Part shown: positions 3,196 through 33,894 of the stretch, one piece after another
How the letters are laid out: each line of letters begins with the position of its first letter
Numbering within the stretch: the stretch's first letter is position 1
DNA from: Nitrospirota bacterium
GTDB taxonomy: Bacteria; Nitrospirota; RBG-16-64-22
Assembly (NCBI GenBank): GCA_016195465.1
Contig: JACPZO010000085.1
Span: 1 to 34,418 of the forward strand
Length of the DNA: 34,418 bases
Direction of reading: 5' to 3'
Translations under genes and position numbers: made by a program
The notes under the pieces: generated by a model
Database searches by the model: none
Seen by the model: the letters and a program-made list of their open reading frames with translations, nothing else
What the model was told of the DNA's origin: nothing

Positions 3196-3597
3196 TTGAC
3201 CCGGCCAACCGTGCCCACGCAGCCTTCCAAGACGATCGAGACCTTTTCCAACCCGAAGCCCGGCCGGGACTACGAGATCTCCTTCGAGTGCCCCGAGTTC
3301 ACGTGCCTCTGTCCGCGGACCGGCCAGCCGGATTTCGCGACGATCCGGATCCGGTACGTTCCCGACACGCTCTGCGTGGAGCTCAAGAGCCTCAAGCTCT
3401 ATCTCTGGTCGTACCGGAACGAAGGCGCCTTCCACGAGGCGGTGACGAACGAGATTCTCGACGATCTCGTGGTTGCCTGCCATCCCCGATTCATGCAAGT
3501 TGTCGGCGACTTCTTCGTCCGAGGGGGAATCCACACGGTCGTTACGGCGACGCACGGCGAGCGGTCCGAAAAGAGCCTGTCCTCACCCATTTCTTGA
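3196..3597 (+). CDS. queF: NADPH-dependent 7-cyano-7-deazaguanine reductase (type I QueF)
   Basis: QueF reduces preQ0 to preQ1 in synthesis of the modified tRNA nucleoside queuosine; it is a tunnelling-fold enzyme of the cytoplasm. The 133-residue length fits the single-domain type I form. The signature [13 protein letters not shown] carries the nucleophilic Cys (C39 here, equivalent to C55 of Bacillus subtilis QueF) and the catalytic Asp (D46). [18 protein letters not shown] is the NADPH/substrate segment. The start is uncertain: TTG at 3196 gives the longest sensible product, and GTG at 3211 is an in-frame alternative; neither has a strong ribosome site. It sits alone between two tRNA-Leu genes. 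No other queuosine gene is visible in the window. Confidence 0.93.
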
Positions 3598-5273: not shown

Positions 5274-5873
5274 ATGAACCTCATACCCATCGTTGTCGAA
5301 CAGACCAACCGCGGGGAGCGCGCGTACGATATCTACTCCCGGCTCCTTCGCGACAGGATCGTCTTTCTCGGGACGCCGATCGACGACATCGTCGCCAACA
5401 CGGTGATCGCCCAACTCCTTTTCCTCGAGGCGGACGATCCCGAGAAGGACATCAACGTCTACATCAACTCGCCCGGGGGGATCGTGACGTCGGGGCTCGC
5501 GATCTACGACACGATCAACTACATCAAGAGCCCGGTCTCCACGATCTGCATCGGCCAGGCCGCGAGCATGGGGTCGCTCCTCCTGTCGGCCGGGACGAAG
5601 GGGAAGCGGTTCTCTCTTCCCAATGCCCGGATCATGATCCACCAGCCGCTCGGGGGGTTCCAGGGGCAGGCGACGGACATCGAGATCCACGCGCGGGAGA
5701 TCCTCCGGATGCGCGAGACGCTGAACGAAATCTACGCCCGGCACACCGGCCAGGCGATCGACCGGATCCGGACGGATACGGAGCGCGACTTCTTCATGTC
5801 GGGCGATCAAGCGAAGGAATACGGCCTGATCGACGAGGTGATCGTCATGAAGGAAAAGCCGAAGAAGGGTTGA
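5274..5873 (+). CDS. clpP: ATP-dependent Clp protease proteolytic subunit ClpP
   Basis: ClpP forms a double-heptameric serine protease chamber that degrades proteins unfolded by ClpX or other Clp ATPases. The 199-residue product has an intact catalytic triad: S98 in [11 protein letters not shown]123 in MIHQP, and D172 in TERDFF, at the same numbering as the Escherichia coli precursor. The N-terminal [22 protein letters not shown] is the typical mature ClpP start. The ATG at 5274 is preceded by ACGGAGGA, an excellent ribosome site. It lies between tig and clpX, with repeats in both gaps. Confidence 0.97.
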
Positions 5874-21838: not shown

Positions 21839-22873
21839 ATGCTGCCGCTTCCGCTCACCCAGTTCTCCCACGGCGCCGGCTGAGCCTGCAAGATCAGCCC
21901 GCAGGACCTGGTCCAGGTCCTCCGCTATCTTCCTCCCGTGACCGATCCCAACGCCCTTGAGGGCCGGGGCCACATGGACGACGCCGCCGTCTACCGCCTG
22001 ACCGACGACCTCGCCGTCGTTCAATCCGTCGATTTCATCACGCCCGTCGTCGATGACCCGTACCGCTTCGGCCGGATCGCCGCCGCGAACGCCCTTTCGG
22101 ACATCTACGCGATGGGCGCGAAGCCGCTCTTCGCCCTGAACCTCGTGGGGTTCCCGGTGAAGACGCTCCCCATGGGCGTCCTGGGAGAGATTCTGAAGGG
22201 CGCGGCCCACAAGGCCGCGGAGGCGGAGATTCAAATCCTCGGCGGGCACTCGATCGAGGACTTCGAGCCGAAGTTTGGGCTGTCGGTGACGGGAGTCGTC
22301 CATCCGGCCCGAGTCGTCCGCAACTCCACGGCCCGCCCGGGAGACCGGCTGATCCTCACGAAGCCGCTGGGAATCGGGGTCATCACGACGGCGGGGGATC
22401 GAGCGGGTTCGGATGTTTTGGAGCGGGCGGTCGCCGCGATGGAAACGCTCAACGCCGCCGCGAGCGGCGCGATGACGAACGTCGGCGTCTCCGCGTGCAC
22501 GGACGTGACGGGGTTCGGGCTCCTGGGGCACCTGTACGAGATGGCCACGGCGAGCGGCGTGGGCGCCGTCGTCATGGCGGCGTCCGTCCCCGTTCTTCCG
22601 GAGGCGGAAAGGCTCGCGTCCGAGGGAATCGCGCCGGCCGGAAGTCACAGCAACCTCGCGTATCTCGAGGACCGGGTGGAGTGGGGGAGGGCCGCGACGA
22701 AGACCCGGAAGATTCTCCTTTCCGACGCCCAGACGTCGGGGGGGCTTCTGATCGCCGTGCCGGCCGCGAGGAGCCGCAAGCTCCTGAAGAGACTCCACGA
22801 GGCCGGCGTGGCGGAGGCCGTCGAGATCGGCGGGATCGTGACCGACAAGTCGGCGATGATCAAGATCGTTTGA
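21839..22873 (+). CDS. selD: selenophosphate synthetase, selenocysteine-containing
   Basis: SelD makes selenophosphate from selenide and ATP, the selenium donor for selenocysteine and other seleno-modifications. The full product is 344 residues if the in-frame TGA at 21881-21883 is read as selenocysteine. The N-terminus then reads LTQFSHGAGUACKI, with U15 and C17 aligning to C17 and C19 of the Escherichia coli enzyme; K18 is the expected catalytic Lys. The ATP-binding body (HMDDAAVY, VDFITPVVDDPY, GRIAAANALSDIYAMG, LGGHSIED, TDVTGFGLLGH, SDAQTSGGLLIAV) is intact. A start after the TGA would delete the active site. The ATG at 21839 has GGAG about 12 bases upstream. A hairpin suitable as a SECIS follows the TGA. 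Confidence 0.95.
21881..21920 (+). promoter_or_regulatory. UGA(Sec) codon and SECIS-like hairpin in selD
   Basis: After the TGA (21881-21883), GGACCTG (21904-21910) pairs perfectly with CAGGTCC (21914-21920) across a GTC loop, so GGTC sits at the apex 27-30 bases after the codon. Bacterial SECIS hairpins carry a G in the first apical-loop positions at about this distance. Confidence 0.8.
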
Positions 22874-22878
22874 AGGCC

Positions 22879-22982
22879 GGTGAATGGGTGAATCGGTGAA
22901 TGGGTGAATCGGTGAATCGGTGAATCGGTGAATCGGTGAATCGGTGAATGGGTGCATCGGTGAATGGGTGAATCGGTGAATT
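22879..22982 (+). repeat. GGTGAATN octamer array downstream of selD
   Basis: Thirteen uninterrupted units. The eighth base is C in eight units, G in four and T in one. Only one unit has a change elsewhere (GGTGCATC). The array begins six bases after the selD stop. Confidence 0.95.
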
Positions 22983-22987
22983 GAAAA

Positions 22988-23106: not shown

Positions 23107-24234
23107 ATGATCGAAGCGGGAATCAAGGGACTCCTTATGGGGGCGGCGGCGGGATTCGTCCTGCACAGGTCGGGGCTCACGCGCTATTCGCGGATCGCGG
23201 GGGCGCTCCTTCTCCAGGACCTCAAGGCGATCAAGTTCATGTTCGGCGCCCTCGCGACGGCGATGCTGGCGTATGGTCTCGCGGCCGCGTGGGGCGTCCC
23301 CGTCACGCCCCGCGTGAACGCCTACGTGGGGCCGGCCCATCTCCTGGGCGGCCTCCTCTTCGGCGTCGGGATGGGCGCCGCAGGGTTCTGACCCGGCACC
23401 TGCGTGGCCCGGTGGGCCGCGGGGCGCTGGATCGTGACGGGCGGCGTGATCGGCCTCCTGGCCGGCGCGTTCGCGTACGACCTTTTCTTTCCGTCGATGT
23501 TTGCTTGGGGACTGTTCGCTCCTCCGCAGAGCGCGACGCTTCCAATCGTCCTGAACGTTTCATTCGCCGCTGTCGCCCTGCCTCTCGGCGTCCTCATCCT
23601 CCTCATGATGGCCTTGGCCGACAGGCTGGACCCGGCCCGCGGGCGGGCCGCGGCGGGAGAGGGCTCCGAGCCTGTTCTCTACGACCGGATCTTCCGGAAG
23701 GAGTGGGGATGGATCTCCGGGAGCGTCCTTTTCGCCGGCCTGGTCGTCCTGGCGACGGCCCAGGGGGAGTACCTGGGAATCGCGGGCGGGATCCCGTCCT
23801 TCCTCGCCCACGTCACGGCGCCTCTCGGCTACAAGTTCCAGACGGTCGGGGGGCTTTCCGATCACACGGCGTGGCGCGCGGCCCTCATCGTCGGCCTCGT
23901 GCCCGGCGCCTTGATCGCGGCCCGGTTGGCGCGCGTCTCCGCGACGGCGGCCGTGGCGCCGATGTGGAGCGAGGTCATCGGGACGTCGACGGCCAAGCGC
24001 GTCGCCGTGACGACGGGGGCGGGTTTCCTCCTTTCGTTCGGGGCGATGGTCGGCGGCGGATGCACCTCCGGCGCGTTCGTGGCGGGGTGGCCGACGCTCT
24101 CGGTCGGGAACTTCGCCATGGGGATGACCTTCTTCATGACGGCGATGGCGACGGCGTTCCTCGTGTACGGGCGGAAGCGCGCGCGGTTCCACGAGATCCG
24201 CGCCGCCCGCAACATCTCCCTGGCCGACGATTGA
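23107..24234 (+). CDS. YeeE/YedE-family transporter, candidate selenoprotein
   Basis: YeeE/YedE proteins are polytopic inner-membrane carriers for thiosulfate or related sulfur (possibly selenium) species, passing the substrate along conserved cysteines. Reading TGA at 23389-23391 as selenocysteine joins two halves into a 375-residue protein with about ten hydrophobic segments. The first half ends GVGMGAAGF; then U95-P-G-T-C99 replaces the family's C-P-G-T motif, and the second half carries the matching GGGCTSG motif. Stopping at the TGA would leave an 94-residue fragment, and the rest has no independent ribosome site. The ATG at 23107 follows GAAGGAGG. A SECIS-like hairpin follows the TGA. 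Its place after selD suggests transport linked to selenium or sulfur supply. Confidence 0.88.
23389..23421 (+). promoter_or_regulatory. UGA(Sec) codon and SECIS-like hairpin in the YeeE/YedE gene
   Basis: CGTGGCCC (23403-23410) pairs with GGGCCGCG (23414-23421) through eight pairs, one of them U-G, around a GGT loop that lies 20-22 bases after the TGA. The spacing and loop fit a bacterial SECIS. Confidence 0.8.
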
Positions 24235-24382: not shown

Positions 24383-24820
24383 ATGAACGCTCGCTGGCAC
24401 GTTTTCTATGGGTTGCTGATCGTCGTTCTTCTGCTGGGCCTGATCGGCATGGGAAGGCAGGCTGGGGCAACCGCAAAACCGGCCAAGGCCGAATTGACCG
24501 CCGAGGAGGTCTTCGAGAAACTCCTGGCCAATCCCCGCGCCCTTCAGGTGGTGGACATGAGAGGGAAAAAGGACTACGAGGAAGGGCGGGTCCCGGGCGC
24601 GATCAGGCTGGCCCTCGAGACGTTCGAGAAGGTCGACCGGTACAAGGAGACGGTCTTCGTCTCGGACGACGGGGATCGGAAGGCTTTCCGGGAGAAGAGG
24701 GAGATGGTCCTCGTTCCGCGCAACCTCAAGGGGGGGATGGTCGCGTGGGCGCTCGCCCGCCTTCCCCAGGATACGGGCCCGTACGATCCGTTGAAGGCCG
24801 GCCTGATCCGACCCGGCTGA
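24383..24820 (+). CDS. membrane-anchored rhodanese-like protein lacking the catalytic cysteine
   Basis: A 145-residue protein with an N-terminal hydrophobic segment (YGLLIVVLLLGLIGMG, about 9-24), either a signal peptide or a membrane anchor, followed by one rhodanese-fold domain: LQVVDMRGKKDYEEGRVPGAIRLAL, then a VFVSDDGDRKAF loop. In active rhodaneses that loop begins with Cys; here it is Ser followed by DDGD, so persulfide chemistry there is unlikely. The ATG at 24383 follows GAGGGAGAAG. Its TGA stop is followed by CTG-TAA and a GGTC-loop hairpin identical in design to that of the next gene, leaving open a C-terminal Gly-Sec-Leu. A sulfur- or selenium-binding structural role is inferred. 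Confidence 0.75.
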   Translation: MNARWHVFYGLLIVVLLLGLIGMGRQAGATAKPAKAELTAEEVFEKLLANPRALQVVDMRGKKDYEEGRVPGAIRLALETFEKVDRYKETVFVSDDGDRKAFREKREMVLVPRNLKGGMVAWALARLPQDTGPYDPLKAGLIRPG

Positions 24821-24846: not shown

Positions 24847-24854
24847 GAAAGAGC

Positions 24855-24921
24855 CGGTGAATCGGTGAATGGGTGAATCGGTGAATTGGTGAATGGGTGA
24901 ATTGGTGAATGGGTGAATGGG
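24855..24921 (+). repeat. GGTGAATN octamer array after the rhodanese-like gene
   Basis: Eight units with C, G or T in the variable position, directly downstream of the GGTC hairpin. Confidence 0.92.
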
Positions 24922-24970
24922 GCAGAAGTCAAAGAGTCGAAGGTCGAAGGTTGAACGATCGAAGAAGACG

Positions 24971-25017: not shown

Positions 25018-25386
25018 ATGTTCACCATGCTGCAAGCGGGCGTCAGGAGAGTCCTCATGGGGGCGGCGGCGCTGTTCCTGGTCGCGCTCTGGACCGGGGA
25101 GGCGTTCGCCCTCGGCGAGCAGATGCTGGGGCGGATCACGGGAGAGAAGTGCGTCACGAAGGGCAAGTTCGGGGAATGCTACCTGAAGGACGCCTTCCCG
25201 ATGGTCTTCCTCACGGAAGACGGGAAGTGGTATCGGGTCGAATCGGTGGGCGACGTCGGGGCGGCCGAGTTGGACAAGGCGTTCGGGAAGAACGTTCTCC
25301 TGGAAGGGTGGACGACGGAGAACAAGGTCTCCATCCTCTCGATGAAGGTCCTGGAGGCGGGGAAGAAAGAATTCTTCAAAGGATGA
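25018..25386 (+). CDS. small exported protein of unknown function
   Basis: I do not recognise the family. The 122-residue product has a signal peptide (charged start, hydrophobic VLMGAAALFLVALW, likely cleavage after GEAFA at about residue 31). The mature part is about 90 residues with two cysteines close together (C46 and C54, in KCVTKGKFGEC), followed by a beta-rich segment (FLTEDGKWYRVESVG, NVLLEGWTTENKVSILSMKVLE). It looks like a small periplasmic binding or redox protein. It lies between two rhodanese genes. Its TGA stop is followed by CTG-TAG and a GGTC-loop hairpin, so a C-terminal Gly-Sec-Leu is conceivable. The ATG at 25018 follows GTAAGGATG and is only moderately supported; an ATG at 25027 is an alternative. 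Confidence 0.65.
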   Translation: MFTMLQAGVRRVLMGAAALFLVALWTGEAFALGEQMLGRITGEKCVTKGKFGECYLKDAFPMVFLTEDGKWYRVESVGDVGAAELDKAFGKNVLLEGWTTENKVSILSMKVLEAGKKEFFKG

Positions 25387-25514: not shown

Positions 25515-25558
25515 GTGCCTGGGGGTGAATCGGTGAACCAGGAATGAGGGGTAGCGCC

Positions 25559-26455
25559 GTGAAAAGAACGATAGGTGGAGTATTGCAGGCTGTTGGTTTT
25601 TTCCTGGCCGTCGCTTCGGCCGCGTGGGCGGCGGAGGCGGGTCATGAGAGCTTCTTCATCGACACGGAGGATCTGGCGCGGATCATCGGCGCGCCGGACG
25701 TGCGGGTCGTCGACGCGGCCGACGAGGCGGCTTACGCCCGGGCGCACATTCCGGGGGCCGTCAACGTCTTCTACGTGAATCTTGCGAAGCTCGAGGAGAG
25801 ACGGAAGAGCGGCTCGCCTCTCTCCGCGGCGGACGCCGAGAAGACTTTCGGCGCGGCGGGGATCGACGCGAAGACGCGCGTCATCGTCTACGACGCGGGC
25901 GACGGGCCGGCCGCGTCGGGGGTCTGGTTCGTCCTCCAGCACATGGGCCACGACAACGTCCGCGTCCTGAACGGCGGGTTCCGGAAGTGGATGAAGGAGG
26001 GGCGCCCCGTCACGCAGGACGTCCCGAAGGTCGGGAAGAAGAAGTTCGCCGCGAACCCCCGGCTCGACCAGGTCGTGACGCTCGACTGGGTGAAGAAGAA
26101 CAAAGACCGCAAGGACGTCGTGATCCTCGATGCGCGGTCGTTCAAGGAATACATCGGCGAAGAGGTCAAGGGCGGCGCGTCGCGCGGCGGGCACGTGCCC
26201 GGGGCGGTCCATTACGAGTGGGCGCGGATGTCGGGGGCCCTCGAGACGCTCAAGCCGCTGGACGAGATCGGGAAGGACCTCGATGCCAGGGGGATCACCC
26301 GGAACAAGGAGATCGTGACCTACTGCAACACGGGGATCGGCCGCTCGACGGACGTGGCGATGGTCCTTAAGATGCTGGGGTACGAGAGGGTGCGGGAGTA
26401 CACGGGCTCATGGGAGGACTGGTCGAGCGACCCGAGGCTTCCGATCGCGAAGTGA
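25559..26455 (+). CDS. exported thiosulfate sulfurtransferase with two rhodanese domains
   Basis: Rhodaneses transfer a sulfane sulfur from thiosulfate to cyanide or thiol acceptors through a cysteine persulfide. The 298-residue product starts with a signal peptide (FFLAVASAAWA, cleavage near residue 24), so it acts outside the cytoplasm. The N-terminal rhodanese domain has Asp in place of the catalytic Cys (VYDAGDGPAAS), and the C-terminal domain carries the active C256 in TYCNTGIGRST, as in the classical two-domain enzymes. I chose GTG at 25559 because GAGGGG lies eight bases upstream; an ATG at 25544 adds five residues but has a poor site. It directly precedes the molybdoenzyme genes. Confidence 0.9.
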   Translation: MKRTIGGVLQAVGFFLAVASAAWAAEAGHESFFIDTEDLARIIGAPDVRVVDAADEAAYARAHIPGAVNVFYVNLAKLEERRKSGSPLSAADAEKTFGAAGIDAKTRVIVYDAGDGPAASGVWFVLQHMGHDNVRVLNGGFRKWMKEGRPVTQDVPKVGKKKFAANPRLDQVVTLDWVKKNKDRKDVVILDARSFKEYIGEEVKGGASRGGHVPGAVHYEWARMSGALETLKPLDEIGKDLDARGITRNKEIVTYCNTGIGRSTDVAMVLKMLGYERVREYTGSWEDWSSDPRLPIAK

Positions 26456-26609: not shown

Positions 26610-29387
26610 ATGCTGACCAGACGGCAGTTCGTAAAGGGCGCGGGAATGGCGGGGATCGGGGCGATCGTTCCCGTCCCCGCGGAAGCGGCGCGCAAGAAGC
26701 GCGACCGGAAGGCGCTCAAGGCCAAGCCGCCCGAGGCGCCCTCGCGCGCGTGGGAGGATCTCTATCGGAACGAGCGGGCCGCGACGGTCGGCGACGCGCA
26801 GGGGTACGCCTTCCATTGCTCGAACTGCCAGGGGAACTGCGCGTGGCGCGTCTACGCGAAGGACGGGATCGTCACGCGCGAGGAACAGCTCGCCGAATAC
26901 CCGCAGATCAACCCGCACATCCCCGACGCCAACCCGCGCGGCTGCAACAAGGGGGCGATCAACTCCCAGGCGATGTACGAGAAGGACCGCATCCTCCATC
27001 CGATGAAAAGAAAGGAAAAACGGGGCGGGGGAAAATGGGAGAGAATCTCCTGGGACCGGGCGATCGCCGAGATATCGGAGAAGGTCGTCGATATCCTGGA
27101 GAAGCACGGGCCGGGCGGGCTCATGGTCTACGCGGGGACGGGCATCGTTTCGCAGGGGCGGCGGGCGGGGCCGCTCCGCCTTGGCTCCCTCCTCGGTTCG
27201 GTCCGCATCTATCCGTCCTCGGCCGTGGGCGACATGTTCACGGGCGCCTCGATCGCCTACGGGATCCCGAACGTGGGCCACTCGCTTGACGCCTGGTTCG
27301 AGACGGACCGGATCATCCTCTGGGGGATCAACCCGAACGTCACGAGGATCCCCGACGCCCACTACCTCTGGGAGGCGAAATACCGCGGCGCGAAGATCGT
27401 CACGATCTCGCCCGAGCATTCCTCCACGGCGATCCACTCCGACCTCTGGATTCCGATCAAGCCCGGGACCGATTCGTTCCTCGCCATGTCGATGGTCCAC
27501 GTGATTCTCAAGGAAGGGCTCGTCAACGAGGCGTTCGTCAAGGAGCAGACCGACCTTCCGTTCCTCGTCCGGAAAGACAGCGGCCGGCTCCTCCGGGACT
27601 CGGACCTGAAGAAGTTCCCCCGCGAGAACGTCTTCTACTTCTGGGACCGGAAGAAGAACGCGCCGGTCGAGGCCCTGGGGACGATGGGGCACGCGAAGGA
27701 CACGCTCCGCCTGGGCGAGGCCGACCCGGCCCTCACGGGATCGTTCGAGGTGAAGGGGAAGGACGGGAAGCCGATCGCCGTCACGACCGTCTTCGAGCGC
27801 GTCCGGGCGGAGGCGGAGAAGTTCTCCCCGGAGGCGACGGCGCGGATCACGGGCATCCATCCGTCCGTCGTCGTGAAGCTCACGCGCGACTTCGCCGCGG
27901 CGAAGAAGGCCGGGATCACGATCGGGTTCTCCCTCCACAAGTACGCTTGGGGCGTGCTCGCGTGCTGGGGCCAGGCGCTCGCGTGCGCGCTCACGGGCCA
28001 CGCGGCCGAGACGGGCGGCCTCGACACGGAGCACCAGTGGTCGCTCGGAGGGATCGGCCCTCTCACCAATCCGAAACCGGCGCGGTTCGCGTCCGGCGTC
28101 CTCTCGGAGTGGATGTCCGGGCGGATGTGGGAGACGTTCAAGACGCACTACTCCGACGAGCGGGAGTTCGCCGAGCGGGTCGGGATTCCGCCCGCCGAGG
28201 TCATCAAGATCGCCGACGAGAGCCGGGAGAAGAAATGGCTCGCCTGGTTCGGCGAGCCGCGGGGACGCATTCTCTTCGGCGACAACATGTTCAGGCGGAA
28301 CAAGTCGCAGGTGCACTACGAGAAGGCCGTCCTCGACCGGACCGACCTCTACGTCAACGTGAACTTCCGGATGGACTCCTCGGCCGAGCTGGCCGACTAC
28401 GTTCTCCCCGGCCAGAGCCACTACGAGGGATGGGATATCCGCGGCGAAGTGGGCTACCACCGCTTCGCGAACCTCATCGTTCCCCCGCCCGGCCTCAAGC
28501 CCGTCGGCGAGGCGAAGAGCGAGTGGGAGATCTGCCGCCTGCTCGCCGCCGGGATCGAGGCCGCGGCCAAGAGGCGAGGGATACCGAAGCTCGTGGACGC
28601 GGCGTTCAACGTGAAGAAGGAAGGGAAGGACGCGCCCGTCGTCCGCGACCTCGACGCGCTCCACGACGACTTCACGATGAACGGGACGGTGAAGACCGAT
28701 CAGGACGTGGTGAAGTGGCTCCTAGCGAACGTGCCGGCTTTCAAGCCGTGGAAGTTCGAGGAAGCGGTCCGGCACGGCTTCATTGTCTTGAACGAGAACG
28801 CCGGCTTTACGTCGCCCCTCTACACGGACAAACCGTACCACTCGTTCGAGGAGCAGGTCCATCTCAAGCGCCCGTACCCGACTCTCTCCGGCCGGCAGAC
28901 GTTCTGCGTCGATCACGACGTCTTCCTGAAACTCGGCGCGGCCGTCCCGACGGCCCGGAAGCCGCTCCATCCGAACAAATTCCCGCTCGCGTTCGTTTCG
29001 CCGCATACGCGGTACGGGATCCACTCCACTTGGCGGTCGAACAAGTACATGATGCGCCTCCAGCGAAGCGAGCCGTACGTCTACTTGAATCCGGCGCTGG
29101 CGAAGAGGAAGGGCATCGAGGACGGCGACCGGGTGCGCGTCTTCAACGACGTGGGGGAGTTCGCCGCGATGGCGAAGATCCATCCGGGGACGCCGCCGCA
29201 CGCGCTCTTCATGGACCATGCGTGGGAGCCGCACCAGTTCAAGGGGAGATCGGGGATGGACGCGCCCGTGGCGGGCCTCCTCTCCCCGCTCGAGCTCGCT
29301 GGCGGATGGGGGCACCTCAAGTTCGGCGCGGAGTGGGACGGCAACCAGATGGCCTACGAGTCGAGCGTGGACGTGGAGAAGGCGTGA
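26610..29387 (+). CDS. type II DMSO-reductase-family molybdoenzyme, catalytic subunit
   Basis: A 925-residue periplasmic molybdopterin oxidoreductase. A Tat signal (TRRQFVKGAGMAG, twin Arg at 4-5) leads to an FS0 cluster motif H69-x3-C73-x3-C77-x34-C112, the same spacing as in NarG and the SerA/DdhA/EbdA/PcrA group. D208 (AVGDMFTG) is the likely Asp ligand of Mo, typical of type II enzymes. A terminal MGD-binding domain (RYGIHSTWRSNKYMM, KGIEDGDRVRVFNDVG) is present. Known relatives reduce nitrate, selenate or (per)chlorate, or oxidise dimethyl sulfide or ethylbenzene; the substrate here cannot be read by eye. The setting among sulfurtransferases and selenium genes favours a sulfur or selenium compound. 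An ATG at 26610, with only a weak site (AAGGGG), starts the Tat motif correctly. Confidence 0.92.
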   Translation: MLTRRQFVKGAGMAGIGAIVPVPAEAARKKRDRKALKAKPPEAPSRAWEDLYRNERAATVGDAQGYAFHCSNCQGNCAWRVYAKDGIVTREEQLAEYPQINPHIPDANPRGCNKGAINSQAMYEKDRILHPMKRKEKRGGGKWERISWDRAIAEISEKVVDILEKHGPGGLMVYAGTGIVSQGRRAGPLRLGSLLGSVRIYPSSAVGDMFTGASIAYGIPNVGHSLDAWFETDRIILWGINPNVTRIPDAHYLWEAKYRGAKIVTISPEHSSTAIHSDLWIPIKPGTDSFLAMSMVHVILKEGLVNEAFVKEQTDLPFLVRKDSGRLLRDSDLKKFPRENVFYFWDRKKNAPVEALGTMGHAKDTLRLGEADPALTGSFEVKGKDGKPIAVTTVFERVRAEAEKFSPEATARITGIHPSVVVKLTRDFAAAKKAGITIGFSLHKYAWGVLACWGQALACALTGHAAETGGLDTEHQWSLGGIGPLTNPKPARFASGVLSEWMSGRMWETFKTHYSDEREFAERVGIPPAEVIKIADESREKKWLAWFGEPRGRILFGDNMFRRNKSQVHYEKAVLDRTDLYVNVNFRMDSSAELADYVLPGQSHYEGWDIRGEVGYHRFANLIVPPPGLKPVGEAKSEWEICRLLAAGIEAAAKRRGIPKLVDAAFNVKKEGKDAPVVRDLDALHDDFTMNGTVKTDQDVVKWLLANVPAFKPWKFEEAVRHGFIVLNENAGFTSPLYTDKPYHSFEEQVHLKRPYPTLSGRQTFCVDHDVFLKLGAAVPTARKPLHPNKFPLAFVSPHTRYGIHSTWRSNKYMMRLQRSEPYVYLNPALAKRKGIEDGDRVRVFNDVGEFAAMAKIHPGTPPHALFMDHAWEPHQFKGRSGMDAPVAGLLSPLELAGGWGHLKFGAEWDGNQMAYESSVDVEKA

Positions 29388-29389
29388 GC

Positions 29390-29857
29390 ATGTGCTCTCA
29401 TTCCCTCCCCCCTGGACAGGGGGAGAGGGCTAGGGTGAGGGGGATACGCGCGTTGCAGGAACGCAAATCGAAGCTTCGAGGTTTCGCGCGAGATCTGCGG
29501 CGAAGCGGGACGGATGCGGAACAGCGGCTTTGGACACATCTACGCGATCGCCGATTGGTCGGGGCGAAGTTTCGCCGCCAGCATCCAATTGGTCCGTTTA
29601 TTGTGGATTTTTGTTCCCCTGAGCATGGTCTTGTTGTTGAGTTGGACGGGGGTCAACACGCGGCCAACGCATCCTCCGATCAGCGGCGGACCGATTTCCT
29701 AAGTCGGCTTGGATTCCGGGTCCTCAGGTTTTGGGATCATGATTTGCTTGCCAATACGGACGCCGTATTGGAGCAGATCGCCGAAAGCCTAACCAACCCT
29801 CACCCTGGCCCTCTCCCTGCGAGGGAGAGGGGAAGTACAAAGGAAGGCGAGGCATGA
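29390..29857 (+). CDS. DUF559 endonuclease-like protein inserted between alpha and beta genes
   Basis: A PD-(D/E)xK-like DUF559 domain of about 110 residues: DAEQRLWTHLRDRRLVGAKF, RRQHPIGPFIVDFC, LVVELDGGQHA and FLSRLGFRVLRFWDHDLL. Such proteins resemble very-short-patch-repair endonucleases and are often stray genes. The frame from ATG 29390 starts with residues encoded by a GAGAGGG palindrome and ends with residues encoded by an inverted copy (NPHPGPLPARERG). The true start may be later, for example GTG at about 29435. Its stop overlaps the beta-subunit ATG (GCATGA). It interrupts a normally contiguous alpha-beta pair, and its codon use is more AT-rich than its neighbours, both of which suggest insertion. 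Confidence 0.75.
   Translation: MCSHSLPPGQGERARVRGIRALQERKSKLRGFARDLRRSGTDAEQRLWTHLRDRRLVGAKFRRQHPIGPFIVDFCSPEHGLVVELDGGQHAANASSDQRRTDFLSRLGFRVLRFWDHDLLANTDAVLEQIAESLTNPHPGPLPARERGSTKEGEA
29403..29443. repeat. GAGAGGG palindrome, copy 3 (left flank of the DUF559 gene)
   Basis: CCCTCCCCCCTGG/ACAGGGGGAGAGGG hairpin followed by a CTAGGGTGAGGGGG tail that points into the DUF559 gene. Confidence 0.8.
29797..29832. repeat. GAGAGGG palindrome, copy 4 (right flank, inverted)
   Basis: The tail CCCTCACCCTGG comes first and the hairpin CCCTCTCCCTGCGAGGGAGAGG follows, so this copy is inverted relative to copy 3 and the two tails face each other across the gene. Confidence 0.8.
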
Positions 29858-30831
29858 GCAAGCGTCAACTCGCGATGGTGATGGATCTGAACAAGTGCAT
29901 CGGGTGCCAGACGTGCACCGTGGCGTGCAAGGTCCAGTGGACGAACCGGAACGGACGCGACTACATGTATTGGAACAACGTCGAGACGGCGCCGGGGAAA
30001 GGTTATCCGAAGAACTGGCAGGAGTCGGGCGGGGGATGGGAGGGATCGGTCCTCAAGGATGGGAAGATCCCGTCGCTCGCGAACGACTACGGGATGCCCG
30101 TCCAGATGAACTACGAGCAAGCCCTCTTCGCGGGGACCGACCCGTGGCTTGCGGCGGCGAACAATCCCGCCTGGACGCCGAACTGGGACGAGGACGAGGG
30201 GGCGGGGGAGTTTCCCAACTCGCACCACTTCTACCTTCCGCGGATCTGCAACCACTGTACGAACCCGGCGTGCCTGGCCGCTTGTCCGCGCGGCGCGATC
30301 TACAAGCGGGAGGAGGACGGGATCGTCCTCGTCGACCAGTCGCGCTGTCGGGGGTACCGGCACTGCGTCGCCGCCTGCCCTTACAAGAAGGTCTATTTCA
30401 ACCCGCTGTTCAATCGCTCGGAGAAATGTATCTTCTGCTATCCGCGCGTGGAGCAGGGGATTCCGCCCGCCTGCGCGAAGCAGTGCGTGGGGCGGATCCG
30501 GCACGTCGGGTTTCTGGACGACGAGGCGGGTCCGGTCCACAAGATCGTGGTCAAGTGGAAGGCGGCGCTTCCCCTCCGGCCCGATTTCGGGACGGAGCCG
30601 AACGTGTACTACGTGCCGCCCCTCTCTTCCCCGAAGTACGATGCCGAAGGGAAGGTGACGGACGAGTCCCGCATCCCGATCGAGTTTCTGGAGAAGCTCT
30701 TCGGGCCGCGCGTGGGGGAGGTCCTCAAGCTCCTCGAAGCGGAGAGGGCGAAGAAGGGGCGGGGGGAGGAGTCGGAGCTCATGGATCTCCTGATCGCCTA
30801 TCGGCAGGAGGAGATGTTCAAGATTCGGTGA
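29854..30831 (+). CDS. type II DMSO-reductase-family iron-sulfur (beta) subunit
   Basis: A 325-residue electron-transfer subunit of the NarH/SerB/DdhB/EbdB type. Four cysteine groups ligate clusters: CIGCQTCTVAC (C15-C25), CNHCTNPACLAACPRGA, CRGYRHCVAACPYKK (where a non-Cys residue in the usual ligand position, as in NarH, suggests a [3Fe-4S] cluster) and CIFCYPRVEQGIPPACAKQC. It has no signal peptide, so it should be co-exported with the Tat-bearing alpha subunit. The ATG at 29854 overlaps the DUF559 stop. Its own stop codon (TGA, 30829-30831) lies inside the first GGTGAATN unit of the following array. Confidence 0.93.
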   Translation: MSKRQLAMVMDLNKCIGCQTCTVACKVQWTNRNGRDYMYWNNVETAPGKGYPKNWQESGGGWEGSVLKDGKIPSLANDYGMPVQMNYEQALFAGTDPWLAAANNPAWTPNWDEDEGAGEFPNSHHFYLPRICNHCTNPACLAACPRGAIYKREEDGIVLVDQSRCRGYRHCVAACPYKKVYFNPLFNRSEKCIFCYPRVEQGIPPACAKQCVGRIRHVGFLDDEAGPVHKIVVKWKAALPLRPDFGTEPNVYYVPPLSSPKYDAEGKVTDESRIPIEFLEKLFGPRVGEVLKLLEAERAKKGRGEESELMDLLIAYRQEEMFKIR

Positions 30832-30994
30832 ATTGGTGAATAGGTGAATCGGTGAATCGGTGAATGGGTGAATAGGTGAATGGGTGAATAGGTGAATAGG
30901 TGAATGGGTGAATCGGTGAATGGGTGAATGGGTGAATCGGTGAATAGGTGAATAGGTGAATAGGTGAATAGGTGAATCGGTGAATCGGTGAATC
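30827..30994 (+). repeat. GGTGAATN octamer array of 21 perfect units between beta and gamma genes
   Basis: Twenty-one consecutive units without a single change in the first seven bases. The eighth base is A in eight, C in seven, G in five and T in one. The first unit carries the stop codon of the beta gene, and the last carries the GTG start codon of the gamma gene. Confidence 0.97.
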
Positions 30995-32097
30995 GAAAAG
31001 TCGGTCTGTCGGTTGCGGGGGCGGCTGTCCTGGGTGTCCTCATGGGAATGGCTGTTCCGGTCGAGGGGGCGAGGCGGGCGAAGGGGGACCCGGTCGCCTC
31101 GTTGGCCGGGAACGGCGAGGTCGTTACGGCCGCGCGCGTGGCCGGGGAGATGCCGACGGAACCAGGCGACGGGCGGTTCGAGAACGCTGTCCCGCTGACC
31201 GTCCGGCTCTATCCTCAGACGGCGACCGAGCCGCGGGCCGAGAAGGGCGTCGTGCGCGAAGCCGCGCTCCGGGCGATCCACGCGGACACGTGGATCGCGT
31301 TCCTCGTCGAGTGGGCCGATCCGGACCGCTCCGACGTCAAACAGGGAACGACGGACACGTTCGCCGATGCCGCCGCGCTCCAATTTCCCCTGAAGTACGG
31401 CGAGGCGGCCGACCGCCTGCCGTACGTCGGCATGGGCGAGCCCGGCCGGCCGGTGAACATCTGGTTCTGGAGAAATGGAGGCGGAACGGGACCCGCCTCG
31501 CTTCGGGCCCGCGGTTTCGGGACGCTGGAGCCCGTGGCGGGCGGAGAAGTGAAGACGGCGGGGAAATGGGAGAACGGGCGAGTCCGGGTCTTGTTCACCC
31601 GCTCGTTCAGCGCGTCTTCGCCGGAAGAAGTCAAGTTCGCCCCGAGGCAAATTGGCCTCGTGCCGGTCGCGCTCGCCGTCTGGGGCGGAGAGAAAGGGGA
31701 GAGGGGCGGGCTCAAGACGCTGTCGGGCTGGCGGTTCGTGAAGTTCGACGGAGGGAAGGTGAGCCCGGCCTACGTCCGGTCGCTCGCCTGGAACCCGAAG
31801 ATCCGCGGCGACGCCAAGACGGGCAAGGCGCTCATGACGCGCCACGGCTGCGCCGGGTGCCACGCCTACCCGGGGAATCCGATCCCGACGAAGATCGGTC
31901 CGGGCCTTGCGGGGATCGGGGGAATCCACCGGCCGGCTTATCTTTTCGAGTCGCTCAAGGATCCGTCGGCCGTGATCGTCCCGCACGGGAACTATTACTC
32001 GATGAAGGACGGACAGCCGATCTCGATCATGGCGCCTTTCTCGGGGCCGGAGCGGGACGCCTATCATATCGTGGAGTTTCTTCGAAGCCTCCGGTGA
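30988..32097 (+). CDS. haem b gamma subunit of the molybdoenzyme fused to a cytochrome c domain
   Basis: A 369-residue exported protein. After a signal peptide (NRKVGLSVAGAAVLGVLMGM, cleavage near 27) comes a region of about 230 residues with the pattern of the EbdC/DdhC/SerC haem-b gamma subunits (VPLTVRLYPQ, DTWIAFLVEWADP, DAAALQFPL, MGEPGRPVNIWFW). A C-terminal c-type cytochrome domain of about 95 residues follows, with C288-AG-C291-H292 and a possible distal Met in SIMAPF. In known complexes the gamma subunit passes electrons to a separate cytochrome c, so fusion would shorten the path. The start is GTG at 30988, inside the octamer array; the next ATG would remove the signal peptide charge. 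Its stop TGA again lies in a GGTGAAT sequence. Confidence 0.88.
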   Translation: MNRKVGLSVAGAAVLGVLMGMAVPVEGARRAKGDPVASLAGNGEVVTAARVAGEMPTEPGDGRFENAVPLTVRLYPQTATEPRAEKGVVREAALRAIHADTWIAFLVEWADPDRSDVKQGTTDTFADAAALQFPLKYGEAADRLPYVGMGEPGRPVNIWFWRNGGGTGPASLRARGFGTLEPVAGGEVKTAGKWENGRVRVLFTRSFSASSPEEVKFAPRQIGLVPVALAVWGGEKGERGGLKTLSGWRFVKFDGGKVSPAYVRSLAWNPKIRGDAKTGKALMTRHGCAGCHAYPGNPIPTKIGPGLAGIGGIHRPAYLFESLKDPSAVIVPHGNYYSMKDGQPISIMAPFSGPERDAYHIVEFLRSLR

Positions 32098-32098
32098 A

Positions 32099-32166
32099 TA
32101 GGCATGAAGGCACATAGGCACATAGGCACAAAGGGGCAAAGGAACAAAGGGACAAAGGGACAAAGG
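32099..32166 (+). repeat. ACATAGGC-type repeat before the dsrE-like gene
   Basis: Units of about eight bases (CACATAGG, CACAAAGG, GACAAAGG) run from the gamma-subunit stop to the ribosome site AAAGGGGGG of the dsrE-like gene. A second array lies just after that gene. Confidence 0.9.
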
Positions 32167-32179
32167 GGGGAATGACTGC

Positions 32180-32524
32180 ATGGTTACAATCATCGTGAAT
32201 GACGCACCGTATGGAATTGAACGCTCCTGGAATGCGCTCCGGCTGGCTTCGGCCCTCCTGACGATGAAGCAGGAGGTCTCCATCTTTCTCCAGGGAGACG
32301 CGGTCCTCGCGGCGAAGAAGGGTCAGCAGGTCCCCAAGGGGTACTACAACATGGGCGAGATGCTCCAGGAGGCGCTGGCGAGGGGCGCGGACGTCTTCGC
32401 CTGAGGCACCTGCCTCAAGGCCCGTGGGGTCTTGCCGGAGGAAGTGCTGGAGGGGGTGGAAGACGGGAAGCAATTGATCCTCGCCCAGCTCGTGGTCGCG
32501 AGCGAGAAGGTCGTGACGTTCTGA
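32180..32524 (+). CDS. DsrE-family protein, candidate selenoprotein
   Basis: DsrE/TusD-like proteins carry sulfane sulfur on a cysteine in cytoplasmic sulfur relays. Reading TGA at 32402-32404 as selenocysteine gives a 114-residue protein of normal family length: an N-terminal IIVNDAPYGIERSWNALRLASAL Rossmann-like start, a central EVSIFLQGDAV strand, KGYYNMGEMLQEALARGADVFA, then U75-G-T-C78-LKARGV, and an end in LVVASEKVVTF. Cys-containing relatives have Cys at this place. Ending at the TGA would cut off the active loop and last strands. The ATG at 32180 follows GGGGGGAATG. A strong hairpin follows the TGA. U75 and C78 make a CxxC-like redox pair. Confidence 0.9.
32402..32434 (+). promoter_or_regulatory. 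UGA(Sec) codon and SECIS-like hairpin in the dsrE-like gene
   Basis: CAAGGCCC (32416-32423) pairs with GGGTCTTG (32427-32434) through eight pairs (one G-U) around a GTG loop 20-22 bases after the TGA, closely matching the design of the hairpin in the YeeE/YedE gene. Confidence 0.8.
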
Positions 32525-32532
32525 CCGAATTC

Positions 32533-32621
32533 CATAGGCACATAGGGACATAGGCACATAGGCACATAGGGACATAGGCACATAGGGACATAGGGACATA
32601 GGCACATAGGCATAGGCACAA
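32533..32621 (+). repeat. ACATAGGC-type repeat after the dsrE-like gene
   Basis: About ten units of CATAGGCA or CATAGGGA, nearly perfect, start about ten bases after the dsrE-like stop and run up to the second 96-base element. Confidence 0.92.
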
Positions 32622-32622
32622 C

Positions 32623-32736: not shown

Positions 32737-33894
32737 ATGGTGGAATCCAAGAACATCGTCATTCTCGGCGGGGGCGTGGGCGGGCTGGTCACGGCCCGGC
32801 AGTTGGCCGGCCGGCTTCGCGGGAAACACCGGATCATCCTCGTGGATCGCAGGGACCGGCACCTCTTCAGCCCGGCCTTTCTATGGGTCATGATGGGTTG
32901 GCGCAGGCCGGAGGAGACGGGCCGGAACCTTTCGGGGCTGGCCCGGTACGGGGTTGAGTTCATGCAGGCCCAGGTGGAGGGGATCGACACCGCGGAGAGG
33001 GCGGTCCGCACTTCGGCCGGAAAAGTCCCGTTCGATCATCTCGTCGTCTCCCTTGGCGCGGACGTTGTCCCGGAGGCCCTGCCCGGGCTGGCCGAGATTG
33101 CGCACACGCCGTACACGCTGGCCGGCGCCGAGAAGCTTCGCGACGCATTGACCGGTTTCAGGGGAGGGCGGGTCGTCGTGATGGTCTCGTCCGTTCCCTT
33201 CAAGTGCCCGGCCGCGCCGTACGAGACGGCCTTTCTTCTCGAAGCGTTCTTCCGGGAGCGGGGCATTCGGGGGAAGGTCGAGATGGAAATCATCACGCCC
33301 GAGCCACAGCCGATGCCCGTGGCCGGGCCCGTCATGGGAGAGGCGGTGAAAGGAATCCTTGCAGCCCGGGGGATCGGATACCGGCCGAATACGCCCGTCT
33401 CGGCCGTGAACGCCGCGGAAAAGACACTCGTGCTGAAGGACGGCGGAAGCGCGGGGTTCGACCTGCTCGTGGCCGTTCCGCCGCATCGGCCGCCGGCCGT
33501 CGTCCGCGATTCCGGGCTGGCCGGGGAGACGGGCTGGGTCCCCGTGGACCGCTTCACGCTGGAGACGAAGCAGGAGGGGATCTTTGCCATCGGCGACAAT
33601 ACGACGATCACTCTTTCCAACGGGAAGCCGCTTCCCAAGGCGGGCGTCTTTGCGCACGCGGAGGCGGTGACCGTGGCCGAGACGATCGCGGCCCGTCTTG
33701 AGGGGCGCCCATCGCCTCGCCGCTTCGACGGCAAGGGGTACTGCTGGGTCGAGATTGGGGACGGCCGGGCGGGGTTCGCGGGCGGCGACTTCTACGCCGA
33801 GCCGAACCCGGTCTTGCGGCTCCGTCCGCCCGGCCGGATGTGGCGCATGGGAAAGGTCCTGTTCGAGAAGTGGTGGATGTGGAAGTGGATCTAA
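32737..33894 (+). CDS. sulfide:quinone oxidoreductase-like flavoprotein
   Basis: A 385-residue FAD-dependent pyridine-nucleotide-disulfide-fold protein. The N-terminal GGGVGGL (11-17) is the first FAD-binding turn, a second Rossmann region surrounds residues 145-200, and IFAIGDNT is the C-terminal FAD contact. It has only two cysteines, C157 in KCPAAPYE and C336 in GYCWVEIG, spaced like the two redox cysteines of sulfide:quinone oxidoreductase that carry the growing polysulfide. The C-terminal RMGKVLFEKWWMWKW is an amphipathic Trp-rich tail suited to membrane docking. The ATG at 32737 is very close to GGAGG; GTG at 32740 is an alternative. Flavocytochrome c-type sulfide dehydrogenase is a less likely reading because there is no signal peptide. 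Confidence 0.87.
   Translation: MVESKNIVILGGGVGGLVTARQLAGRLRGKHRIILVDRRDRHLFSPAFLWVMMGWRRPEETGRNLSGLARYGVEFMQAQVEGIDTAERAVRTSAGKVPFDHLVVSLGADVVPEALPGLAEIAHTPYTLAGAEKLRDALTGFRGGRVVVMVSSVPFKCPAAPYETAFLLEAFFRERGIRGKVEMEIITPEPQPMPVAGPVMGEAVKGILAARGIGYRPNTPVSAVNAAEKTLVLKDGGSAGFDLLVAVPPHRPPAVVRDSGLAGETGWVPVDRFTLETKQEGIFAIGDNTTITLSNGKPLPKAGVFAHAEAVTVAETIAARLEGRPSPRRFDGKGYCWVEIGDGRAGFAGGDFYAEPNPVLRLRPPGRMWRMGKVLFEKWWMWKWI

Follow-up and report, generated by a model that had tools for sequence, protein, structure and literature searches.

Does a TGA within the first conserved motif of a YeeE/YedE gene end the protein, or could it place a selenocysteine (Sec) at the heart of a membrane conduit for sulfur? 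The question is raised by a gene at 23107–24234, on the forward strand of the window, that is, of the whole 34,418-nucleotide stretch of Nitrospirota DNA analysed here. Assigned by Pfam, Foldseek and its orthologues to the YeeE/YedE (PF04143) membrane proteins, this gene would encode 375 residues with Sec at position 95, and its product is hereafter called Sec-YeeE. Frame 1 runs from the ATG at 23107 to the stop TGA at 24232–24234, and its sole interruption is the TGA at 23389–23391, codon 95 of 375, which agrees with the two in-frame halves split by TGA alone that the first-pass annotation had noticed. Around this codon the translation reads GVGMGAAGF-U-PGTCVARWAAGR. Since the terminator of the gene is itself TGA, this codon is not simply reassigned genome-wide. 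The read-through protein scores 84.2 bits against PF04143 (Pfam cut-off 27).

Conservation of the TGA and translation through it

Among 99 related genomes searched at the protein level, six full-length relatives were found, one of them the window's own protein; each has one TGA, and three are only 45–46% identical. When 84,980 species genomes were scanned with search patterns that excluded the Sec site, 16 loci emerged, and TGA was found in 14 of the 15 in which the codon is covered. Of all the loci, some are second records of one genome, and the majority are metagenome-assembled. The subfamily occurs in Nitrospirota, Nitrospinota, Beta- and Gammaproteobacteria and a metagenome-assembled genome (MAG) of the Rhodospirillaceae (Alphaproteobacteria). 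Within the window's phylum (396 genomes), all nine subfamily orthologues have TGA, as does an additional Nitrospinota locus (G801). The TGA thus shares one alignment column across several phyla and independent assemblies, in homologues only 43–53% identical, which is far more than chance would give. Searches of the viral collection (140 pattern matches) and, by tblastn, of plasmid records gave no relatives of Sec-YeeE. Searches of 369 genomes from the class to which the betaproteobacterial MAG belongs, of 248 from the order of the Rhodospirillaceae MAG and of 300 from the phylum of the Cys-bearing MAG described below added no members to those known; therefore, the subfamily is rare. One of the loci, L062, has its YeeE frame broken by a frameshift at about position 5510 of a MAG sequence, either by error or by decay.

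Directly after the TGA, PGTC is invariant in 20 loci, with four codons used for Pro, three for Gly and two each for Thr and Cys, and L080 carries PGSC instead. The Cys of this UPGTC motif, Cys99 (codon 23401–23403), four residues past Sec95, is invariant in every homologue read. Purifying selection is strong on both sides of the TGA, and the downstream part shows dN/dS values of 0.18 and 0.15 in congener comparisons. The first possible restart codon lies 5 to 22 codons past the TGA and, since many loci have no start codon for 8–22 codons, PG(T/S)C must be translated through the TGA. It could be argued that the TGA is a true stop and that two half-proteins assemble like the short PmpA/PmpB or the split archaeal YedE; split YeeE-type proteins are indeed known (PMC11582611, PMC5322559), and some loci offer a GTG at five codons. 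However, PG(T/S)C is kept between the TGA and any start despite synonymous change, and in other loci the nearest start lies 8–22 codons off. Furthermore, the break falls inside motif 1 and not between the halves, TGA is the only stop codon found at codon 95, never TAA or TAG, and SECIS-type pairing and the Sec machinery are conserved as well (see below). We regard such a split protein as very improbable.

That the TGA reflects a sequencing error or a pseudogene in decay, conceivable for a window taken from a draft genome of 198 contigs, has a negligible probability: both flanks of the TGA are under strong selection, and error is excluded because homologues 96%, 91% and 43–53% identical, in other independent assemblies, keep the identical TGA. 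Homologues with a sense codon, which the first-pass annotation had held to speak against Sec, come down to one distant Cys protein, with TGC, in the Thermaerobacter-labelled MAG L059. Judged from these sequences, codon 95 almost certainly encodes Sec, and we infer the presence of selenium in the protein.

The SECIS-type hairpin and the Sec machinery

Folding of the region past the TGA gives a SECIS-type hairpin at 23393–23430, with an 8-bp upper stem (23403–23421) closed by a 3-nt GGU loop (23411–23413). The stem begins 11 nt and the loop 19 nt past the TGA, so that the eight-pair hairpin with a GGT loop about 20 bases downstream, reported at first pass, is recovered. The bSECIS model asks for a loop of 3–9 nt with G in its first two positions, a stem of 4–16 bp, a spacing of 16–37 nt and an MFE of at most -7.5, and the window hairpin fits it in loop, spacing and stem, as does the family-wide stem. 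The extended hairpin has a stability of -28.2 kcal/mol, equalled in 5 of 200 shuffles; the hairpin of the L073 lineage is weaker (-5.4 to -6.1). Tested locus by locus against codon-preserving shuffles, the signal is moderate (p about 0.025 to 0.45), and the joint stability over eight lineages was reached by none of 200 such shuffles.

Each of the 15 distinct sequences forms a 6-bp apical stem; at these six positions, 90 of 90 pairs are standard. When the seventh pair is included, 97 of 105 pairs are standard, compared with 35 to 61 in shifted registers; each sequence was counted in its own register, chosen from its individual fold, which somewhat favours the observed register. The stem also shows compensatory changes, namely UG/CG/GU, GC/UA and CG/UG/AU/GC. 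RNAalifold yielded no useful consensus from either a gap-free or a MAFFT alignment, since the register of pairing shifts by one base from lineage to lineage.

The window genome carries the complete Sec machinery: a tRNA-Sec of 78.2 bits (cut-off 47), selA and selB above their cut-offs, and selD. Among the 16 subfamily genomes searched, selB was detected in 13 and tRNA-Sec in 10 at the thresholds used, and several of the others are small draft genomes. Taken with the conserved TGA and the compensatory changes in the hairpin, this machinery supports the proposal, made at first pass, of a Sec in the first conserved motif.

Two further genes of the window have an in-frame TGA. The SelD gene (21839–22873, forward strand; TIGR00476, 389.1 bits) contains one at 21881–21883 (GAG-U-ACK), followed by a hairpin at 21903–21921 with a GUC loop. 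This TGA is also present in the relatives L047 and L048, and the window SelD is likely itself a selenoprotein. Its start at 21839 lies upstream of the ORF at 21938 that would be expected from a standard caller. The second gene, at 32180–32524 on the same strand, encodes a DsrE-family protein (PF02635, 80.7 bits) with a TGA at 32402–32404 (FA-U-GTCLKARG) and a hairpin at 32416–32434, whose GUG loop lies 19 nt past the TGA. When every TGA codon of the loci was scanned systematically, the outcome was too noisy as a whole but did flag this codon; it is kept in L083, and DsrE homologues without TGA occur in L050, L052 and L062. The DsrE-like protein is likely the third selenoprotein of the window. 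DsrE-like proteins with a UxxC motif are a known type of selenoprotein.

Fold, Sec site and sulfur operon

An AlphaFold2 model of Sec-YeeE, built with 13 sequences, has a mean pLDDT of 70 and a pTM of 0.76 and is weak at residues 97–104. All its confident Foldseek matches are YeeE/TsuA structures (6lep, 6leo, 8k1r and 8j4c; E 1e-7 to 1e-8). The sole NCBIfam match of the protein is also TsuA (NF052577), at 35.8 bits and thus below the equivalog cut-off of 400; the model of the selenium-linked YedE (TIGR04112) gave no match at E 0.001. In a profile alignment with the Spirochaeta thermophila protein, Sec95 corresponds to Cys91 and Cys319 (GGGCTSG, codon 24061–24063) to Cys293, both of which are indispensable in S. 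thermophila YeeE/TsuA (PMC11582611); structure 6lep is entitled inactive mutant C91A. A cysteine relay for thiosulfate has been proposed (PMC11073785). The three relay cysteines of TsuA, 22, 91 and 293, are here represented by Thr25, Sec95 and Cys319, respectively. Cys99 is specific to the subfamily, with Val95 at the matching place in TsuA.

Downstream of YeeE, on the same strand, the window encodes a membrane-anchored rhodanese-like protein without catalytic Cys (24383–24820, PF00581), which is kept after YeeE in window-type, proteobacterial and Nitrospinota loci. It is followed by a small protein that carries two Cys and an apparent signal sequence (25018–25386), a conserved neighbour without family match in NCBIfam or Pfam, and by a conserved double-rhodanese sulfurtransferase with an apparent signal peptide (25544–26455; PF00581, 146 bits over two stretches). 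The molybdoenzyme comprises a molybdopterin subunit of DMSO reductase family type II with a Tat-like N-terminus (26610–29387; TIGR03479, 964 bits, just below the cut-off of 984.75), whose nearest solved structure, 4ydd, belongs to the same type, an iron-sulfur subunit (29854–30831; TIGR03478, 545.6 bits, cut-off 480.7), and a heme-b-type gamma subunit with a fused cytochrome c domain (30988–32097; TIGR03477, 123.5 bits; PF09459, PF00034). The cluster then continues with the DsrE-like protein and a sulfide:quinone-reductase (SQR)-like flavoprotein without in-frame TGA (32737–33894). The latter resembles the model 'type III SQR, selenoprotein subtype' (NF049943, 247.6 bits, cut-off 525). The SQR-like gene of L058 contains an in-frame TAG (3393–3395), at a position where the window protein has Tyr and L052 has Met; this TAG was taken for error or decay and not for recoding. 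Runs of short repeats lie between the operon genes, at 22881–22985, 24853–24922, 32096–32180 and 32530–32622 (ggtgaatcggtgaatgggt; gcacataggcacataggg).

On all contigs of sufficient length, the operon has the core order double rhodanese, Sec-YeeE and molybdoenzyme alpha and beta, usually with the small secreted protein ahead of the double rhodanese. The window genus differs in that its YeeE gene precedes the small protein and the rhodanese, and has SelD directly upstream. The double rhodanese and the molybdoenzyme are the most constant neighbours of Sec-YeeE, and SQR, DsrE and a BigR-like ArsR regulator occur in many loci. The operons of Proteobacteria and Nitrospinota further encode a ResA-like (thioredoxin-fold) protein, and genes for an ArsR regulator, a Rieske protein or a subunit of a bd-type oxidase lie close by in some of the Nitrospirota loci. 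The operon runs into selA, selB, selD and tRNA-Sec in a gammaproteobacterial (L079) and the Rhodospirillaceae (L071) MAG. It is followed by selB and tRNA-Sec in a betaproteobacterial one (L070), whose genome holds another selB and another tRNA-Sec at a different place, and selB lies about 5 kb away in the Nitrospinota MAG.

Proposed sulfur relay and its place in the family

Taken as a whole, Sec-YeeE is probably a conduit, read through with Sec, that passes reduced sulfur; we infer its substrate, direction and chemistry. SelB and tRNA-Sec would decode the UGA at codon 95 as Sec under the direction of the hairpin, which begins 11 nt downstream. Sec95, replacing the central relay cysteine, would act together with Cys319 in passing reduced sulfur species across the membrane, and Cys99, which would lie one turn from Sec95 in a helical segment, could serve to resolve the selenolate or to hold it. 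On the extracytoplasmic side, the double rhodanese, the DMSO-reductase-type molybdoenzyme with its cytochrome c subunit and SQR could be the partners; on the cytoplasmic side, sulfur carriers may take part, i.e. the DsrE-like protein, itself probably Sec-containing. Compared with their sulfur counterparts, selenols are more acidic, and selenolates are more nucleophilic and better leaving groups. Such chemistry would suit a covalent relay. The most likely cargo would be sulfane sulfur or thiosulfate. Since the protein is so distant from TsuA by score, lacks Cys22 and has no TusA/YeeD-like partner seen in the operon, thiosulfate as the substrate, as in the 'thiosulfate-type carrier' assigned at first pass, is conjectural.

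If Sec95 is real, the protein could instead be mainly a transmembrane redox or signalling element with a Sec95/Cys99 selenylsulfide switch. The invariant Cys99, peculiar to this subfamily, does make a U-x-x-x-C pair, and the ResA-like genes of the proteobacterial and Nitrospinota operons would be consistent with such a role. However, the best structural matches are all YeeE/TsuA, and both cysteines essential in TsuA are retained, as Sec and Cys, which makes a switch rather than a conduit rather unlikely. Equally accepting Sec95, the cargo could be a selenium compound (selenide, selenite or a selenium carrier) feeding SelD, as has been proposed for the YedE of selenium users. The position of SelD in the window genus and the selA-selB-selD genes downstream in the proteobacterial loci would fit this idea, and YedE (TIGR04112) is tied to selenium use (Lin et al. 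2015, PMC5322559). On the other hand, TIGR04112 is unmatched here, the constant neighbours and those of many loci are of sulfur type, and sel genes are absent from the 8–11 kb read of Nitrospirota loci such as L057, L058 and L060. Moreover, the need to make Sec-YeeE can itself explain the presence of the Sec kit. We therefore consider a selenium cargo unlikely and retain the reduced-sulfur conduit.

Comparison with known systems shows which features are particular to Sec-YeeE. The TsuA/YeeE proteins of S. thermophila and E. coli (6leo, 8k1r; NF052577) have the PF04143 fold and the Cys91/Cys293 sites in common with it, whereas the window protein has Sec for Cys91, a PGTC with the extra Cys99, no Cys22 and no TusA-like YeeD seen in its operon. 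The first-pass annotation named no established example of Sec in the conduction motif of such a carrier; a Sec-containing member of the family is in fact already catalogued among prokaryotic selenoproteins, the YeeE/YedE protein WP_012471001.1 with the motif GUxSG, citing earlier surveys (PMC13188914). Both proteins belong to PF04143 with one predicted Sec. Compared by published motif alone, GUxSG differs from the G[F/L]UPG[T/S]C seen here; it could correspond to the Cys91 motif, which reads GCASG in TsuA, or to the second one, GCTSG in the window protein. SoxT1 and SoxT2 (PMC11582611) are likewise YeeE-family membrane proteins near sulfur oxidation genes and ArsR-type sulfur regulators, but they are Cys-based and have sox/shdr genes as neighbours; in the stretches analysed here, no sox genes could be identified. 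The YTD cluster and the type II yeeE-tusA-dsrEFH arrangement (PMC13293266, PMC13047784) resemble the window in combining YeeE with DsrE-type carriers in organisms with SQR and rhodaneses. In contrast, the operon described here has no tusA seen, a type II DMSO-reductase molybdoenzyme instead, and a Sec in its YeeE, joined in the window genus by one in DsrE. The YedE of selenium users (TIGR04112, PMC5322559) shares the superfamily and the proximity to selD, but the window protein does not match its model, carries Sec in place of Cys and has neighbours of sulfur type. Finally, the Tso and SAO multi-selenoprotein operons (cited in PMC13188914) have clustered selenoprotein genes as here; none of the window proteins reached the cut-off of the NCBIfam Tso/SAO models. 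The literature searched contained no description of a G[F/L]UPGTC Sec-YeeE subfamily. Sec in YeeE/YedE is thus already known; what is new is a subfamily with another motif, nearly Sec-only, with a defined operon and a link to the Sec machinery.

In a maximum-likelihood tree the Sec subfamily stands apart from the ordinary YeeE of the phylum (100/100). Its single Cys member (L059) represents one change inside the subfamily, on a long branch of unsure placement. The window genus is not grouped with the other Nitrospirota, the deep forks being poorly supported; this pattern may point to transfer. More tentatively, we propose that in this Sec-dominated subfamily a buried selenolate may relay sulfur covalently with Cys99 and Cys319, within a horizontally moving sulfur-respiration operon able to carry selA, selB, selD and tRNA-Sec.

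Selenoproteins are mostly soluble redox enzymes, and their Cys versions are usually more numerous than the Sec ones (PMC13188914). Here, in a membrane conduit of known structure, Sec stands in for the central cysteine that is essential there, and a single Cys version was found. Sec-YeeE makes it testable whether sulfur passes through YeeE-type proteins via weak S-H-S contacts or by covalent chemistry, for which Sec and Cys should differ strongly. Furthermore, the linkage to selA-selB-selD-tRNA-Sec suggests that the need for a single Sec protein can be enough to bring the complete Sec trait from one phylum to another.
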